Below, in pieces: positions 421-6,296 of a stretch of 6,296 bases of DNA; positions within the stretch are counted from its first letter, which is position 1, and each line of letters begins with the position of its first letter. The position numbers were made by a program, and so were the translations under genes. Source of the DNA: Deltaproteobacteria bacterium RIFOXYA12_FULL_61_11 (GTDB taxonomy: Bacteria; Bdellovibrionota_F; JAHFAK01; YA12-FULL-61-11). The notes under the pieces were generated by a model that searched no databases, was not told where the DNA came from, and was given only the letters and a program-made list of their open reading frames with translations. The DNA is taken from assembly GCA_001799195.1 (NCBI GenBank), contig MGSU01000260.1, forward strand, positions 1 to 6,296. The letters are read 5' to 3'.

Positions 421-2067
421 ATGAAACTGGTCGAATGCGTTCCCAACTTCAGCGAAGGCCGAGACGAGTCGAAGATCAGGGCCATCACGGCCGCGATCGA
501 GGCCGTGCCCGGCATCCGTCTCCTCGACGTCGATCCGGGCCGCAATACCAACCGCACCGTGGTCACCTTCGTCGGGGATCCCGAGGCCGTGCTCGAAGCC
601 GCCTTCCTGGCTATACAGAAAGCCGCAGAGGTGATCGATATGCGCATGCATCGCGGCGAGCACGCCCGGCAGGGGGCCACCGACGTCTGCCCCTTCGTCC
701 CGGTGAGCGGTGTGACCATGGAAGAGTGCGTCGCTTTGGCTCGCAGGCTCGGCTCCCGCGTTGGAGAGGAGTTGGGCATCCCGGTCTACCTCTACGAAGC
801 GGCGGCCTCCGAGCCGCGGCGCCGCAACCTGGCCTATGTGCGCCAAGGCGAGTACGAGGGGTTGCCTGCAAAACTGATCGATCCCGCTTTCGTGCCCGAC
901 TTCGGCCCCGCGGTCTTCAATCCCCGCTCCGGGGCCATCGCCATTGGCGCCCGCGAGTTCCTCATCGCCTACAACCTCAACCTCAACACCAAGGACTCCA
1001 AGCTGGCCAACCGCGTCGCCGTGGCCATCCGCGAGCAAAGCAAGGTAGAGAAGGACGAGGTAGGCAAGGACCTCCTCGACGAACAGGGCGCCAAACGCTA
1101 CACCAAGGGACTCCTCTCGTGCGTCAAGGCCACGGGGTGGTACCTTGAGCAGTACCGCACCGCCCAGGTCTCGGTGAACCTGACCAACTACAAGGTCACC
1201 CCCCTCCACGAACTGGTCGAGACAACACGCAAGGTGGCCGCCGAACTGGGACTCGTCGTCACCGGTTCGGAGCTGGTCGGACTCATCCCTAAGACCGCGC
1301 TGCTCGAGGCCGGGAAGTTCTACCTGCACCGGATGAACCGCAGCACCGGGGTCAGCGAGGAAGAACTCGTCGAGACCGCGGTGCGCTCCCTCGGGCTGAA
1401 TGAACTCTACCCCTTCGACCCGAAGAAAAAGGTCATCGAATACGTCATCGCCGAACCGCCCTTGCTCCTCGGCATGAACCTGCGCGAGTTCGCCAATGAA
1501 GTGGCCTCGGACTCCCCCGCTCCCGGCGGCGGCAGCGTGGCCGCGCTCTGCGGCGCCCTATCGTGCGCGCTCTCCACCATGGTCGCCAATCTCACCTACA
1601 CTAAGAAGGGCTTCAAGCAGGTCAAGAAAGAGCTGCGCCTGCTCGCCGAAGAGGGCCAAACACTCAAAGATACCTTCCTCTCTGACGTGGACGAGGACAC
1701 CCGCGCCTTCAACCAGGTCATGGCCGCTCTCTTAGCACCGTCCGAGGAGAAGGCTTCCCGCCTAGCCGCCGCCAACCTCGCCGCGACCTCGGTGCCGCTC
1801 GGCGTACTGCGCCGCTCGCTGCAGGCCCTCACCTACGCGGAATTCGTGGCGACGAACGGCAACCCGAACTCGCTCTCGGACGCAGGCGTCGCCGCGATCA
1901 CGGCCAGGGCGTGTGCCGAAGGCGCCTACCTCAACGTGCTGATCAACCTGCCGGGCCTGGCCGACAAGGCCTTCGCCACCGCTGCCAAGACCGAGGCAGA
2001 AGACCTCCGCGCTCGGGTCCGCACCAGCACCGAGACCGTCCTGGCCGCGATCGAAGCCAGGTTGTAA
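421..2067 (+). CDS. ftcD: Bifunctional glutamate formimidoyltransferase / formimidoyltetrahydrofolate cyclodeaminase
   Basis: This 548-residue cytosolic enzyme would transfer the formimino group of N-formimino-L-glutamate, a histidine-degradation product, to tetrahydrofolate. It would then deaminate the product to 5,10-methenyl-THF (EC 2.1.2.5 and 4.3.1.4). Residues 1 to about 180 form the formiminotransferase N-domain, starting with the typical VECVPNFSEGRD. The motif MHRGEHARQGATDVCPF (76-92) holds His81, matching the catalytic His82 of mammalian FTCD. The second subdomain (about 181-300) includes VSVNLTNYKVTPLHE (251 on) and GSELVGLIPK (282-291). After a short linker, the cyclodeaminase domain runs from about 340 to 548, with the diagnostic SPAPGGGS at 365-372. 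Length and domain order match the fused mammalian-type enzyme, and both halves look intact. The start is supported by the conserved N-terminus and the upstream GAGGGA. No other histidine-utilisation gene is in the window. Confidence 0.96.
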   Translation: MKLVECVPNFSEGRDESKIRAITAAIEAVPGIRLLDVDPGRNTNRTVVTFVGDPEAVLEAAFLAIQKAAEVIDMRMHRGEHARQGATDVCPFVPVSGVTMEECVALARRLGSRVGEELGIPVYLYEAAASEPRRRNLAYVRQGEYEGLPAKLIDPAFVPDFGPAVFNPRSGAIAIGAREFLIAYNLNLNTKDSKLANRVAVAIREQSKVEKDEVGKDLLDEQGAKRYTKGLLSCVKATGWYLEQYRTAQVSVNLTNYKVTPLHELVETTRKVAAELGLVVTGSELVGLIPKTALLEAGKFYLHRMNRSTGVSEEELVETAVRSLGLNELYPFDPKKKVIEYVIAEPPLLLGMNLREFANEVASDSPAPGGGSVAALCGALSCALSTMVANLTYTKKGFKQVKKELRLLAEEGQTLKDTFLSDVDEDTRAFNQVMAALLAPSEEKASRLAAANLAATSVPLGVLRRSLQALTYAEFVATNGNPNSLSDAGVAAITARACAEGAYLNVLINLPGLADKAFATAAKTEAEDLRARVRTSTETVLAAIEARL

Positions 2068-2231: not shown

Positions 2232-2260
2232 TTGACCTGCCGCGTCATTTGTGGTACAGC
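2232..2260 (+). promoter_or_regulatory. Candidate sigma-70-type promoter for the papain-like lipoprotein gene
   Basis: TTGACC (2232-2237) matches five of six bases of the TTGACA -35 consensus. After a 17-base spacer comes TACAGC (2255-2260), a weak -10 box with TA and the fourth A conserved. It is preceded by TGG, giving an extended -10 TGn at 2252-2254. Transcription would begin near 2267, leaving a leader of about 20 bases that contains the ribosome binding site. If real, this rules out the upstream GTG at 2251 as the translation start. The -10 is poor, so this is a prediction only. Confidence 0.35.
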
Positions 2261-2275
2261 CGAGGCCATACTCGT

Positions 2276-2280
2276 GGAGG
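2276..2280 (+). promoter_or_regulatory. Ribosome binding site that fixes the papain-like lipoprotein start
   Basis: GGAGG lies 6 bases before the ATG at 2287, an ideal distance. The in-frame upstream GTG at 2251 has no comparable site and would put 12 unneeded residues before the signal peptide, so 2287 is chosen. Confidence 0.75.
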
Positions 2281-2286
2281 TCTTGC

Positions 2287-3255
2287 ATGGTCCGGGCACT
2301 GCTCCTCTGCTGGCCCCTCTTCCTCGTTCTTGCCTGTGACGTCGCCGAAGCTCCCGATCCCACCCCCGACGGCAAGTACGCCCGAGAGCTCCGCCTCTAC
2401 CACCGAGACCACCTGCCGCTGCGCTTCTCGCTGCAGCGCGACGACCAACCCGACTTCGTCCCCCTACCCGGGACACAGCCGCCCGAGCGCAGCGAGGAGT
2501 TCCTGATCGAGACCTCGCCGAAGCTCATTCAAGGTCGCGGCGACTGCATGATCTTCGGCACCACCCACTTCTTCGAGTATGCCTGGTATCTGCTCTTCGG
2601 CGAGCGTTTCGACGCCTCGCAACAGTACCTGGCCTACCGCTTCACCACCGCGCCCTGGAAGATCATGGCCACCGGCCATACCGGCACCGCGCTCAAGACC
2701 GTCGCGCTACTCAACGACGGCATGGTCGCCGAAGCCGACCACCCCTACGACCAAGAAGACCCTTGGTATGATCCGCCGGCCTCGCGTCCGATGGTACAGC
2801 GCCGCATCACCTTCGAGCCCTACCTCATCAACGACACCGGTAACCGCGACTGGTCCGAGGGGGCCTACACCGCGGAGCACATCGTGGAGATCAAAGAAGA
2901 CATGGTCGCCAATCACGCGCCGGTGCTCCTCTCGGTGACCGAGTGGGGTGGCTTTATTTGGCACGTCATGGTCGTGGTCGGCTGGGACGAAGCCGGTCTG
3001 TACCTGCGCGACTCCCTGGCCGTGAGCGATACCTCTGAGCACCAAGTCTACCGCGAGTTCTTCACCCGCGCCAGCTACGACGAGATCGTCGACCTCGGCA
3101 TCGCTGCCTGGTCGGCCAGGTTCAGCGAGAGACCGGCACGCATCACCGACGGCTTGGTTTACGGCCTGGAGGAATTCAAACGTAACCTTTTATGCCTGCT
3201 GCTGAGCAACTGCCCCCTCGACCTGGCTTTGGAGGACGAGGCCAAGACGCCCTGA
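2287..3255 (+). CDS. Lipoprotein with a papain-like (C1-type) cysteine peptidase domain
   Basis: This 322-residue protein begins with a lipoprotein signal peptide: a hydrophobic core, then the lipobox LVLAC with the lipidated Cys17 followed by Asp. It should be membrane-anchored and face the periplasm or cell exterior. From about residue 78 the papain pattern can be followed. IQGRGDCMIFG carries a likely oxyanion Gln82 and nucleophile Cys87. A TGTALKTVALLNDGMVAEADHPY segment (132-154) resembles the papain ALxxV...GI...YPY region. IWHVMVVVGW carries His226, and LYLRDSL carries Asp242 in place of papain's Asn175. Cys87-His226 and His226-Asp242 are 139 and 16 residues apart; papain has 134 and 16. 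The cysteine preceding papain's nucleophile (Cys22) is absent. No prodomain of normal size is present. Function and substrate are unknown. The gene converges on the next with 15 bp between stops, with no clear terminator there. Confidence 0.75.
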   Translation: MVRALLLCWPLFLVLACDVAEAPDPTPDGKYARELRLYHRDHLPLRFSLQRDDQPDFVPLPGTQPPERSEEFLIETSPKLIQGRGDCMIFGTTHFFEYAWYLLFGERFDASQQYLAYRFTTAPWKIMATGHTGTALKTVALLNDGMVAEADHPYDQEDPWYDPPASRPMVQRRITFEPYLINDTGNRDWSEGAYTAEHIVEIKEDMVANHAPVLLSVTEWGGFIWHVMVVVGWDEAGLYLRDSLAVSDTSEHQVYREFFTRASYDEIVDLGIAAWSARFSERPARITDGLVYGLEEFKRNLLCLLLSNCPLDLALEDEAKTP

Positions 3256-3270: not shown

Positions 3271-4371
3271 TCACGGTACCACCGCTAACATCTGGAACTC
3301 GTTGTAACCCATGTCCGAGCTGCCGCCCCGGTAGAGGTCCCAGGCGAACAGTTCCTTCTCGCGGTCATAGGCGATGATAGTGGCATGCATACTTGTCTCG
3401 TCATAACGCTCGTTGGGGTCATAGACGAAGATCAGGTCGGCTCGGCTGCAGCGGATCATTCGGTAGACCAGCACGGCGTGGGCATACGTGGCGCTGGCCA
3501 GTCCGAGCAGGGGCATCTGTTTGCGCCGCAGCCGTTCCCACAACCGCTCGACCACCACGGCCGGCTCGGTGAGATCGGTACCGGGCGGCGAAAAGAGCGA
3601 CGTCTCGAGGAAGTCGCGCAATTCGACGATCTGTGAGCCGACGGTGTTGCGCTCGACCTGGAGGAGCGAGGACAGCTCGTAGAATTGGTCGGGCATGGCC
3701 GTGGTGTAGTCCCGGAGCGTGGCATACCCATTCACGTCGAGCTTGATCAGTCCGCCGCTGACCAGGGACGCGGTGAGGTTGTCCTGGGAGATCCCCGTCT
3801 TGTCAGCTTCAGGGTGATACCGCCCGTGCTGGGACAGATGTCCGACCAGATAGGCCATGCCGTAGCACATGCCGGTCATCTCGTACTCGGCGGCCAGGCC
3901 GACCACCCGGTCATTGGTCACGAGCGGCGTGTCCTCGAGGATGTGCAACCCCCGCGACGAGATGGCCTCGAGCTCTCCGAAACTCGTTGCGCTGCGCCCC
4001 GTGCTCCACTCCAACTCGGCTAGATAGGGGTTGGGATTGAGCGGCGGCGGCGCCGGAGGATCCGCGGGGGCCTCTCCTTGGGGGTCGATAGGCGGGAGGG
4101 GAGTTTCCTCGGTCTCGAGTTCGGTCACCTCGACCTTACCGAGGTTGAGCGCGGGAGCACCGCTCTGGGGTCTTTGCTCGGGTGTGGAAGTAGGCGCTGT
4201 GGGGAGAGTCCCGAGAGAGGGTCTCGGGGTGGTCGGGGTACTCGCGAGGTCGGAACTGGCTTCTCCCTCGAAAAGGACCTCCTCGGGTTCCGCGCTCTTC
4301 TGGTCGTCCTCGCACGCCACGAGGCCGCAGCAACCAATGAAGAGGAAGAGAACATAGGGAACCGGCCGCAT
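3271..4371 (-). CDS. Lipoprotein with Pro/Thr-rich linker and a predicted papain-fold (C39-like) cysteine peptidase domain
   Basis: This 366-residue protein has a lipoprotein signal peptide ending in the lipobox LVAC with lipidated Cys20, followed by acidic residues. Residues about 35-115 are a low-complexity linker rich in Pro, Thr, Ala and Glu, probably a flexible tether. The folded part (about 118-366) contains TGMCYGMAYLVGH with Cys169, THAVLVYRM-like sequence (TYAHAVLVYRM) with His298, and IFVYDPNERYD with Asp318. A GxCYGMA...HAV...YDPN series is typical of papain-fold, C39-like peptidase domains, so Cys169-His298-Asp318 is the proposed triad (inference). The start is ATG 4371, because AGGAGG precedes it by 7 bases and the signal peptide starts there. 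An open frame continues 16 codons further upstream without support. It sits 71 bp after the preceding minus-strand gene with no terminator seen, so cotranscription is likely. The exact substrate, or even activity, is unknown. Confidence 0.72.
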   Translation of the reverse strand: MRPVPYVLFLFIGCCGLVACEDDQKSAEPEEVLFEGEASSDLASTPTTPRPSLGTLPTAPTSTPEQRPQSGAPALNLGKVEVTELETEETPLPPIDPQGEAPADPPAPPPLNPNPYLAELEWSTGRSATSFGELEAISSRGLHILEDTPLVTNDRVVGLAAEYEMTGMCYGMAYLVGHLSQHGRYHPEADKTGISQDNLTASLVSGGLIKLDVNGYATLRDYTTAMPDQFYELSSLLQVERNTVGSQIVELRDFLETSLFSPPGTDLTEPAVVVERLWERLRRKQMPLLGLASATYAHAVLVYRMIRCSRADLIFVYDPNERYDETSMHATIIAYDREKELFAWDLYRGGSSDMGYNEFQMLAVVP

Positions 4372-4442: not shown

Positions 4443-5690
4443 TCAGGATCCACCGGCCTGGGCGAACCGGTACCCGAGGTAAGCACCGAGCAAGAAGCCC
4501 TCTCCCAAGGGAGCATCGGCCTCATACCCACGGGTCTTCCAGCCGGCCTCGAGCTCTCCGAACCATCCCCGGATCGACGGGCTGCGCCAGATACCCCTGA
4601 CCCTGCCGTAGGGTCGCCGGTCGAGGAAGGTCGTCCGGTCCGGATCGACCTCGCGCACAAGGCCGACCTTGGTGGCGAGGGTCCACGTCCCGAGGAACCG
4701 GACCGGCCAATCCACCCTGACAAGAGCGCTATCGGGGCGTTCGTGCGAGAGGACCTCGAAGCCGAGCCAACCCGTTCCGGGCGCCATGGGCATCAACAGA
4801 TCGAGAACATAACGCTCTCCGAACGGCACCAAGGCATAGCCGAACCGCGGAACCACGGGCAGAGGCCACGCCAGGGGCCGATCCATCGCGCCGGTGGCGA
4901 GGTACTCGAAATCCAGCCAGAGCGCCTGGAGCAAGAGGGGATCCACGAGATTGAGCAGAGCCCTCGCGCCGACTCCTGCGACCGAAGGGCCGGCCACCGC
5001 ACGCCCGGTCTGCCGGGCTACCTCGGCCCTAACCTCGAGTACTGCGTTGACATCGTTGTTCCTCGAACCTCCTCCGGCGGACAAAGCGGTCAGGAGGAGC
5101 AGCCCCCGGCTGAGCCCATAGGTGTCGCCGGGATTGAGGCGCACCTCTCTCCAATCGACCATGCTCTCTGCCAAACGGTCGGAAGCCACGGCGCTGGCCT
5201 CGAACCCACCCAGACTGAACAATTGGTTCTCCACGGGACTCAAGGTACCGAGATAGCCGGTCAGACCAAGATAGCTGTTGTCGAACACATAGACATAGGG
5301 GGCAGGCAGGCCGAGCCGGACCCGCAAGCCCGACACCCCGAGTTCGCGACCGCGAGCTGAGTGTCCGAAAACCTCGTGGATGACCATGACGGTCCAGGAG
5401 GCCAACGCGAGGTCGACAGCCACCAGTTTCAACAAGCGCAGCCAAGGAGTGCTGAGCCTCCCCTGCAACAGGTATTCGCTGCTGTTGAAGAGCAGGAAGC
5501 CCAGCACCTCGCCATAACGGGCTCCCGCACGGGGACCGAGATAGCGATCACCGCCGGCTTGCAGGACGGGATCAAACCCCCCGAGCTCCAACTCCGGCGG
5601 AGCTTCAGCGCGCACGATCGAAGCCCACCAGACGACGAGGAACATCGCCCGGAGGAGCGCCGCTACCGTGCCTCGGCCCGACCTCGTCAT
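4443..5690 (-). CDS. Exported membrane protein with an HExxxH motif, possible metallopeptidase; family not recognised
   Basis: This is a 415-residue protein I cannot assign to a named family. It begins with a basic then hydrophobic segment (about 9-26) ending VRA-EA, a plausible signal peptide cleaved near residue 28. A long hydrophobic segment (about 86-104) runs directly into IHEVFGHSARGRELG, giving His105-Glu106-xxx-His110. HExxxH is a metal-site pattern known from TldD-type peptidases, but the TldD context is absent and the classical HExxH spacing is not met. GGFEASAVASDRLAE (161-175) could supply a further acidic ligand (inference). Residues from about 280 to the C-terminus alternate polar and hydrophobic residues and end LGAYLGYRFAQ, as in beta-barrel-like outer-membrane proteins. 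The start at 5690 is 8 bases after the stop of the upstream gene with only a weak purine stretch, suggesting translational coupling. The frame stays open to 6047, but that extension lies inside the upstream gene. Confidence 0.65.
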   Translation of the reverse strand: MTRSGRGTVAALLRAMFLVVWWASIVRAEAPPELELGGFDPVLQAGGDRYLGPRAGARYGEVLGFLLFNSSEYLLQGRLSTPWLRLLKLVAVDLALASWTVMVIHEVFGHSARGRELGVSGLRVRLGLPAPYVYVFDNSYLGLTGYLGTLSPVENQLFSLGGFEASAVASDRLAESMVDWREVRLNPGDTYGLSRGLLLLTALSAGGGSRNNDVNAVLEVRAEVARQTGRAVAGPSVAGVGARALLNLVDPLLLQALWLDFEYLATGAMDRPLAWPLPVVPRFGYALVPFGERYVLDLLMPMAPGTGWLGFEVLSHERPDSALVRVDWPVRFLGTWTLATKVGLVREVDPDRTTFLDRRPYGRVRGIWRSPSIRGWFGELEAGWKTRGYEADAPLGEGFLLGAYLGYRFAQAGGS

Positions 5691-5698
5691 GAGCCGTC

Positions 5699-6296
5699 TC
5701 AGGGTAACCCGTTGAACTTGCGCCCCACCCACCCGAGGGCGAAGAGCACACAGAGCAGGAGGACGAACCAAGGTGTATCCCATACTCCGAACACCTGGCC
5801 GGCCCGGACCTGGAAACGAGGCGGGAGTTCCTCGAGCACGGAGGCGAGGGTACTCCCCGGTCGCACGTGGAGCACCTCGTTCTCGGCTGCCAACCGCAGG
5901 AAGAGACGTGGGTCGGAGAGCACGACGTCGGCCTCTCGCCCTCCGCCCCGACACAGGAACCGGGTCCTGGCCTGGCGGAGCTCGCCCTCCATGGTGACCG
6001 CCGCTTCGACGGTATACACCCCGGGTTCCACCAGCGGGAGGCGCCAACGAACCATGCCCTCTTCATTGCCTTCTGCCCGATGCACGGCCTCTACCCGTCC
6101 CTGGGAGACGAGTTGGAGTTCGATGGCGCCGCGATGGGGTTGGAAGTCCCAGTTCCTGGCAGTGACCTCGACCTGTACCTCCTCTCCGAGGACATAGTCC
6201 CGCCGGTCGGTCTCCACGCGCAGGCGGTCGAACTCGTCCGCCCGCGTGAGAAAGGCCGTACTCTTGCGAAAGAATTCTCGGTAATGCCGCCCATCC
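5699..6296 (-). CDS. C-terminal part of a membrane-anchored protein resembling BatA/VWA or glutamine-amidotransferase-like membrane proteins (5' partial)
   Basis: The frame is open to the window edge and ends at TGA 5699-5701, giving 198 visible residues; the N-terminus is missing. The visible part opens with GRHYREFFRKSTAFLTRADE, followed by RLRVETDRRDYVLGEEVQVE. This resembles the segment (GxxYxxFWRxxxRWLxxxxx...RLxVxTDRxxYxxGExV) that follows the VWA- or GATase1-like domain in large bacterial membrane proteins of the BatA/aerotolerance-like type. An Ig-like beta-sandwich region follows (about 27-115), including EPGVYTVEA. A transmembrane helix lies at about 175-190 (WFVLLLCVLFALGWV), with a short basic tail, RKFNGLP, matching the EWxxRRRxGL-type ending common in that group. 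The GTG at 6217 is only an internal codon in this reading. It is the first visible gene of a probable operon with the two genes downstream on the minus strand. The family call is by pattern only. Confidence 0.6.
   Translation of the reverse strand, partial: DGRHYREFFRKSTAFLTRADEFDRLRVETDRRDYVLGEEVQVEVTARNWDFQPHRGAIELQLVSQGRVEAVHRAEGNEEGMVRWRLPLVEPGVYTVEAAVTMEGELRQARTRFLCRGGGREADVVLSDPRLFLRLAAENEVLHVRPGSTLASVLEELPPRFQVRAGQVFGVWDTPWFVLLLCVLFALGWVGRKFNGLP

Follow-up and report, generated by a model that had tools for sequence, protein, structure and literature searches.

The gene at positions 4443 to 5690 of the window, the whole 6,296-nucleotide stretch of DNA analysed here, encodes an exported protein of 415 residues with an HExxxH motif. 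Judged by its relatives, the protein belongs to a small, unnamed and undescribed family, in which the HExxxH and HExxH forms of the motif alternate. We read it as a two-part protein, an HExxxH metallopeptidase-like enzyme that would be anchored by an outer-membrane beta-barrel, and give this reading a probability of about 0.55.

The gene is a clean open reading frame of 415 codons on the minus strand (as are all features of the protein given below), with an ATG at 5688-5690 and a stop codon at 4443-4445, and the homologues align over its full length. By inspection, residues 1-28 (5607..5690) form a Sec-type signal peptide with a hydropathy peak of 1.94 at residue 8 and the cleavage site VRA/EAPP. 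A signal peptide is present in most relatives too. The gene starts 8 bases past the stop of an upstream gene on the same strand, and because of this short distance the two may be co-transcribed. The upstream gene (5699-6296, minus strand) is cut by the contig end; the C-terminal part of its protein ends in a membrane segment and includes a region of weak MG2-like (Ig-fold) character, and the gene is absent beside the relatives of the 4443-5690 gene in the neighbourhood comparison. Rfam gave no match, the promoter scan was empty, and the terminator scan stayed at chance level. The organism's own genome (an assembly of 4.6 Mb in 342 contigs) contains no second copy of the gene, and its class is represented by one other sampled genome only.

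Elsewhere in the window, the gene at 421-2067 (plus strand) encodes a bacterial fused FTCD, with formiminotransferase and cyclodeaminase parts (FTCD_N, FTCD, FTCD_C). Two further neighbours, 3271-4371 (minus) and 2251-3255 (plus), encode predicted lipoproteins with lipobox-like VACE and VLAC sequences. In both, Cys, His and Asp/Asn follow in this order (GMCYGM/HAVLVY and GDCMIF/HVMVVVG), which looks papain-like by eye, with no supporting Pfam or PDB match.

Neither the window protein nor any scanned relative had a credible match in searches of Pfam, NCBIfam, PHROGs and PDB sequences, which bears out the original prediction that it matches no known family. Around 30 relatives were recovered from many phyla, among them Ignavibacteriota, Marinimicrobia, Zixibacteria, Myxococcota and Bacteroidota. 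Among 386 diverse genomes we found two convincing relatives, L002 and L003, at 23-27% identity and with the motifs HEFFGHGAR and HEFYGHGAR. From an alignment of these two we reached 20 loci in named genomes (one of them, L049, and L003 are a single gene). The hosts are Melioribacteraceae, WOR-3, Delongbacteria, Zixibacteria, Marinimicrobia, Bacteroidetes, Eisenbacteria, Aminicenantes, Polyangiaceae, other myxobacteria and one gammaproteobacterial MAG. The 20-locus scan was keyed to patterns of the motif region and by itself cannot prove that the motif is conserved; the later profile searches were not keyed to it. These motif-independent profiles matched in 14 of 149 Marinimicrobia genomes and, for the myxobacterial phylum, in 2 of 282, and the relatives found in this way retain the metal residues. 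Single-sequence scans of genome and viral contigs and tblastn on plasmids found nothing, as the window protein is too divergent, and an alignment-based scan of the viral contigs found nothing either.

Some members and one further protein deserve separate mention. Two members that diverge from each other occur in one Eisenbacteria MAG (L052:1732-2991 and L054:1811-3064, both on the plus strand). The Marinimicrobia genome G717 has a standard member, L071, and also a member with the variant motif HEYIGHGDRYRE (L082:1501-2748, minus strand). A 255-residue HELGH protein (L004:883-1125, minus strand) matches Pfam Peptidase_M50B marginally, at 26.3 bits against a cut-off of 26, and the window protein weakly (E 0.005); it is a possible bridge to M50. 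The gene neighbourhoods share no common neighbour across lineages and give no hint of function. Several family loci adjoin other peptidases (Rce1-like, C92, M6, M3, C10), from which we draw no conclusion since no single type recurs.

The motif itself, H105-E106-V-F-G-H110 (HEVFGH, residues 105-110, 5361..5378), had been the starting point of the original prediction, and it holds well. All 32 sequences, although only about 15-26% identical to the window protein, have H105, E106, G109, H110 and R113, and for this reason the motif is not there by chance. The loss of the two His and the Glu among homologues, named in advance as the result that would count against a metal site, is seen in none of the 32 aligned sequences.

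Among the Marinimicrobia matches we found full-length relatives with the canonical HE[LF]GH (L073, L074), and a second HExGH group with HEFGH[WS] (L075-L077, L079-L081) was reached via the C-terminal half. In the family, HExGH is found in these eight relatives only. With MAFFT, a one-column gap falls exactly between E106 and F108, i.e. the residue missing from the HExGH relatives corresponds to V107 (5370..5372). The same single gap within the motif is obtained with hhalign, which aligned the 21-sequence HExxxH set with the six-sequence HExGH group at a probability of 99.7 and an E-value of 1.8e-25; the 356 aligned columns take in the C-terminal half. Since the alignment is near full length and has this single gap in the motif, HExxxH and HExxH are, at the level of sequence, two forms of one family separated by a natural one-residue indel. 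To our knowledge, it is rare for members of one family to differ by an indel in a catalytic zinc motif. In a tree of 32 members two motif changes are needed; however, the test does not reject a single HExxH clade (p-AU 0.316) and the branch of the window protein is very long, so we leave the direction and the number of the indels unsettled.

Two residues are rival candidates for the third metal ligand. E164 (5199..5201) belongs to a GGxE motif and lies 53 residues after H110, a distance of 44-58 across the family that resembles the spacing in DPP III. It is Glu in 30 of the 32 sequences, Asp in L051 and lost in L049. D213 (5052..5054), the candidate with a position like that in site-2 proteases, is invariant in 24 HExxxH sequences; in the HExxH group its alignment is less sure, the Asp being one column off in part of the group. 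A conserved Glu named earlier as Glu155 was misnumbered: residue 155 is Asn, and the conserved residue is E154 (5229..5231), which is kept in most HExxxH members only; the other residues had been given correctly. The family alignment contains no conserved Cys column. The L049 protein (7935-9284, plus strand) keeps HEFYGH and has AGLGV in place of the GGxE glutamate; possibly it is an inactive form or uses another third ligand.

In the AlphaFold2 model of the window protein, confidence is good from residue 80 to 300, with block means of mostly 74-94, and poor at 314-373. Residues 53-266 (4893..5534) form an alpha-helical metallopeptidase-like domain, with pLDDT mostly 75-94 from residue 80. The motif helix is followed by a beta-hairpin with strands at 120-126 and 142-147 (5250..5333). 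The three best matches of this model with VIA-align are all site-2 proteases: SpoIVFB with Z 8.3 (127 aligned residues, rmsd 3.8), a level possible by chance among helical bundles, and mjS2P with Z 7.6, these two over window residues 82-243, and SpoIVFB E44Q with Z 7.2. Neither the window model nor the model of L040, a central relative, had a Foldseek match at E <= 0.001.

The likeness to site-2 proteases (M50; PF02163, PF13398) consists of the succession motif helix, beta-hairpin, helix; part of the family shares HExGH, and an Asp and a Glu are conserved further on. In mjS2P, we take the ligands to be H54, H58 and D148. Ungapped counting from the limits of the aligned ranges puts H105 on mjS2P residue 54 and D213 on SpoIVFB residue 137; this count is no residue alignment, and it puts H105 off by two when begun at the start of the SpoIVFB range. 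In SpoIVFB, the ligands are H43, H47 and D137, and in site-2 proteases TM2 and TM3 are joined through an antiparallel beta reentrant loop (PMC11486902). The hairpin of the window protein takes the same place in the order of elements as this loop. The layout of the modelled helical domain is therefore suggestive of a site-2 protease, and this is not proof. Differences are also clear: the window protein has HExxxH, no LDG motif, zero or one instead of three to seven TM-like segments, and an added outer-membrane barrel. In site-2 proteases the LDG motif supplies the Asp ligand, whereas D213 sits in ND[VP]. PF02163 and PF13398 match neither the window protein nor its relatives. HExxH, LDG, multiple TM helices and a Pfam match were all looked for in the window protein and none was found, for which reason we do not file it in M50.

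The C-terminal part, about residues 270-411 (4458..4883), had been described as looking like outer-membrane beta strands, and the models agree, more clearly for a relative than for the window protein itself. L040 is modelled well nearly throughout (mean pLDDT 89.2, pTM 0.87), with helices over 52-276, the beta-hairpin after the motif helix, and then eight confident strands from 292 to 432, so that the barrel is predicted at high confidence in this relative. A short extra strand at 41-47 is grouped with the barrel by the aligner. In the window model the C-terminal strands are weaker, with low confidence at 314-373; the combination of a signal peptide with an amphipathic barrel is likewise present as predicted in L040 and weaker in the window protein. 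For L040, VIA-align ranks outer-membrane barrels first, with KdgM at Z 10.6 and NanC at Z 10.5 (KdgM/NanC range 10.3-10.6). KdgM and NanC have 12 strands. Their sequence identity to the L040 barrel is 5-10%, and they are without the helical metallopeptidase-like domain. The connections between the L040 strands roughly alternate between short and long, and with a periplasmic C-terminus this places the helical domain, in the model, probably on the periplasmic side.

Taken as a mechanism, our preferred reading runs as follows. The signal peptide would bring the protein to the periplasm, and the C-terminal half would form a small beta-barrel anchoring it in the outer membrane. The helical half at the N-terminus, which probably faces the periplasm, would hold a mononuclear metal site, probably zinc, with H105 and H110 plus E164 and/or D213 as ligands and E106 as the general base. 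The most likely activity would be peptide hydrolysis near the outer membrane. The domain would keep the core layout of a site-2 protease, with the TM character missing in most members, and its motif helix would have to bulge for both His to stay on the metal, as in DPP III and TldD. Against this reading stand the site-2 protease match at a Z of 8.3 that helical bundles may reach by chance, the lack of a conserved gene neighbourhood hinting at function, the poor barrel model and long branch of the window protein, the missing E164 in L049 and the slightly changed motif context in L082.

The HExxxH spacing had been noted as unusual against HExxH. It is indeed conserved here, and it is not unprecedented. 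DPP III binds zinc with HExxxH (HELLGH) and a Glu about 52 residues on; the mutations H450Y, H455Y and E508A abolish zinc binding and activity, while shortening of the motif to HExxH leaves activity (PMC3268031). TldD has HExxxH on a distorted helix and uses a Cys in addition (PMC5810440). As both of these sites are catalytic, the extra residue in the motif is compatible with catalysis. The fold of TldD is different and its third ligand is a C-terminal Cys. DPP III (M49) resembles the window protein in HExxGH and a Glu at a similar distance, but it is about 720-740 residues long (723-738 set against the 415 of the window protein), has another fold and no barrel, and the window protein has no Pfam or PDB sequence match to M49.

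This spacing favours the strongest rival, a gluzincin domain that would have no kinship with site-2 proteases and whose chemistry would be thermolysin/M48/M49-like, with zinc bound by H105, H110 and E164 and a structural role for D213. E164 is also better conserved than D213 over both motif forms. In the hhalign profile comparison with the HExxH and combined sets, the best scores were 34-39 for M50, 25-31 for M48 and 22-25 for M3, all above the column-shuffled controls (maxima 14-21), with a probability never above 65%; the HExxxH set alone gave no probability above 4%. The M48 scores thus exceed the controls; however, M50 outscores them and the M48 alignments are confined to 14-17 columns at the motif. 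In structure, site-2 proteases match best, and among the VIA matches listed there are no M48 or M49 chains, which we do not count as proof. PF01435 (M48) matches neither the window protein nor its relatives, and M49 is equally missing from the Pfam results. BepA, a zinc protease acting at the outer membrane (PMC8423444), and other M48 peptidases may be functional parallels, but M48 has HExxH and no barrel. On balance, we regard a gluzincin as a serious though rather doubtful explanation.

It is unlikely, in our view, that the protein binds metal in the outer membrane without being a protease, its site serving structure, metal uptake or another kind of hydrolysis (e.g. of lipids). The two sequences in which E164 is lost or replaced by Asp would fit such a role, as would the lack of a conserved substrate or partner gene. 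Small outer-membrane barrels also include lipid enzymes, and OMPLA is among the matches of L040, as a barrel only. Against it, the general base E106 is invariant, and it would be needless in a purely structural site.

The original prediction had likened the site to those of intramembrane or membrane-embedded metallopeptidases. The segment before the motif (residues 86-104) does have the highest hydropathy of the protein, 1.99 on the Kyte-Doolittle scale over 19 residues, and no other family member is as hydrophobic there; the mean before HE is 1.19 in the HExxxH set, so strong hydrophobicity is a property of the window protein and not a family trait. Downstream of the signal peptide, family members show zero or one segments over a hydropathy of 1.6, compared with three to seven in the fetched M50 proteins, and on this comparison we rejected a membrane-embedded site. 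That the protein is a protease working within the bilayer is thus very improbable, despite the hydrophobic segment and the site-2 protease-like fold, as the C-terminal outer-membrane barrel also implies a transit through the periplasm that strongly hydrophobic helices would impede. Most likely the active site lies in an exported soluble domain, outside the bilayer. The earlier hint towards intramembrane metalloproteases is nevertheless echoed by the fold comparison of the models and is worth pursuing. Of the overall picture first drawn, the HExxxH site, Glu164, the barrel half and the absence of a known family stand, and the membrane-embedded site does not; the alternation of HExxxH and HExxH within the family and the resemblance of the helical domain to site-2 proteases go beyond it.

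Tentatively, and at odds below even, a site-2 protease-type core may have left the inner membrane, lost its TM character and become fused to an outer-membrane beta-barrel, with an extra residue in the zinc motif in most lineages. The present data would allow a Pfam/NCBIfam model of the family to be built. The family is a natural counterpart to the laboratory-made shortening of the DPP III motif (PMC3268031). A protease-like domain on an outer-membrane barrel, in mostly uncultured phyla, would be a novel type of envelope enzyme, and if the core on the barrel is truly that of a site-2 protease, it would be a natural experiment in the evolution of active-site indels and a new class of outer-membrane protease.
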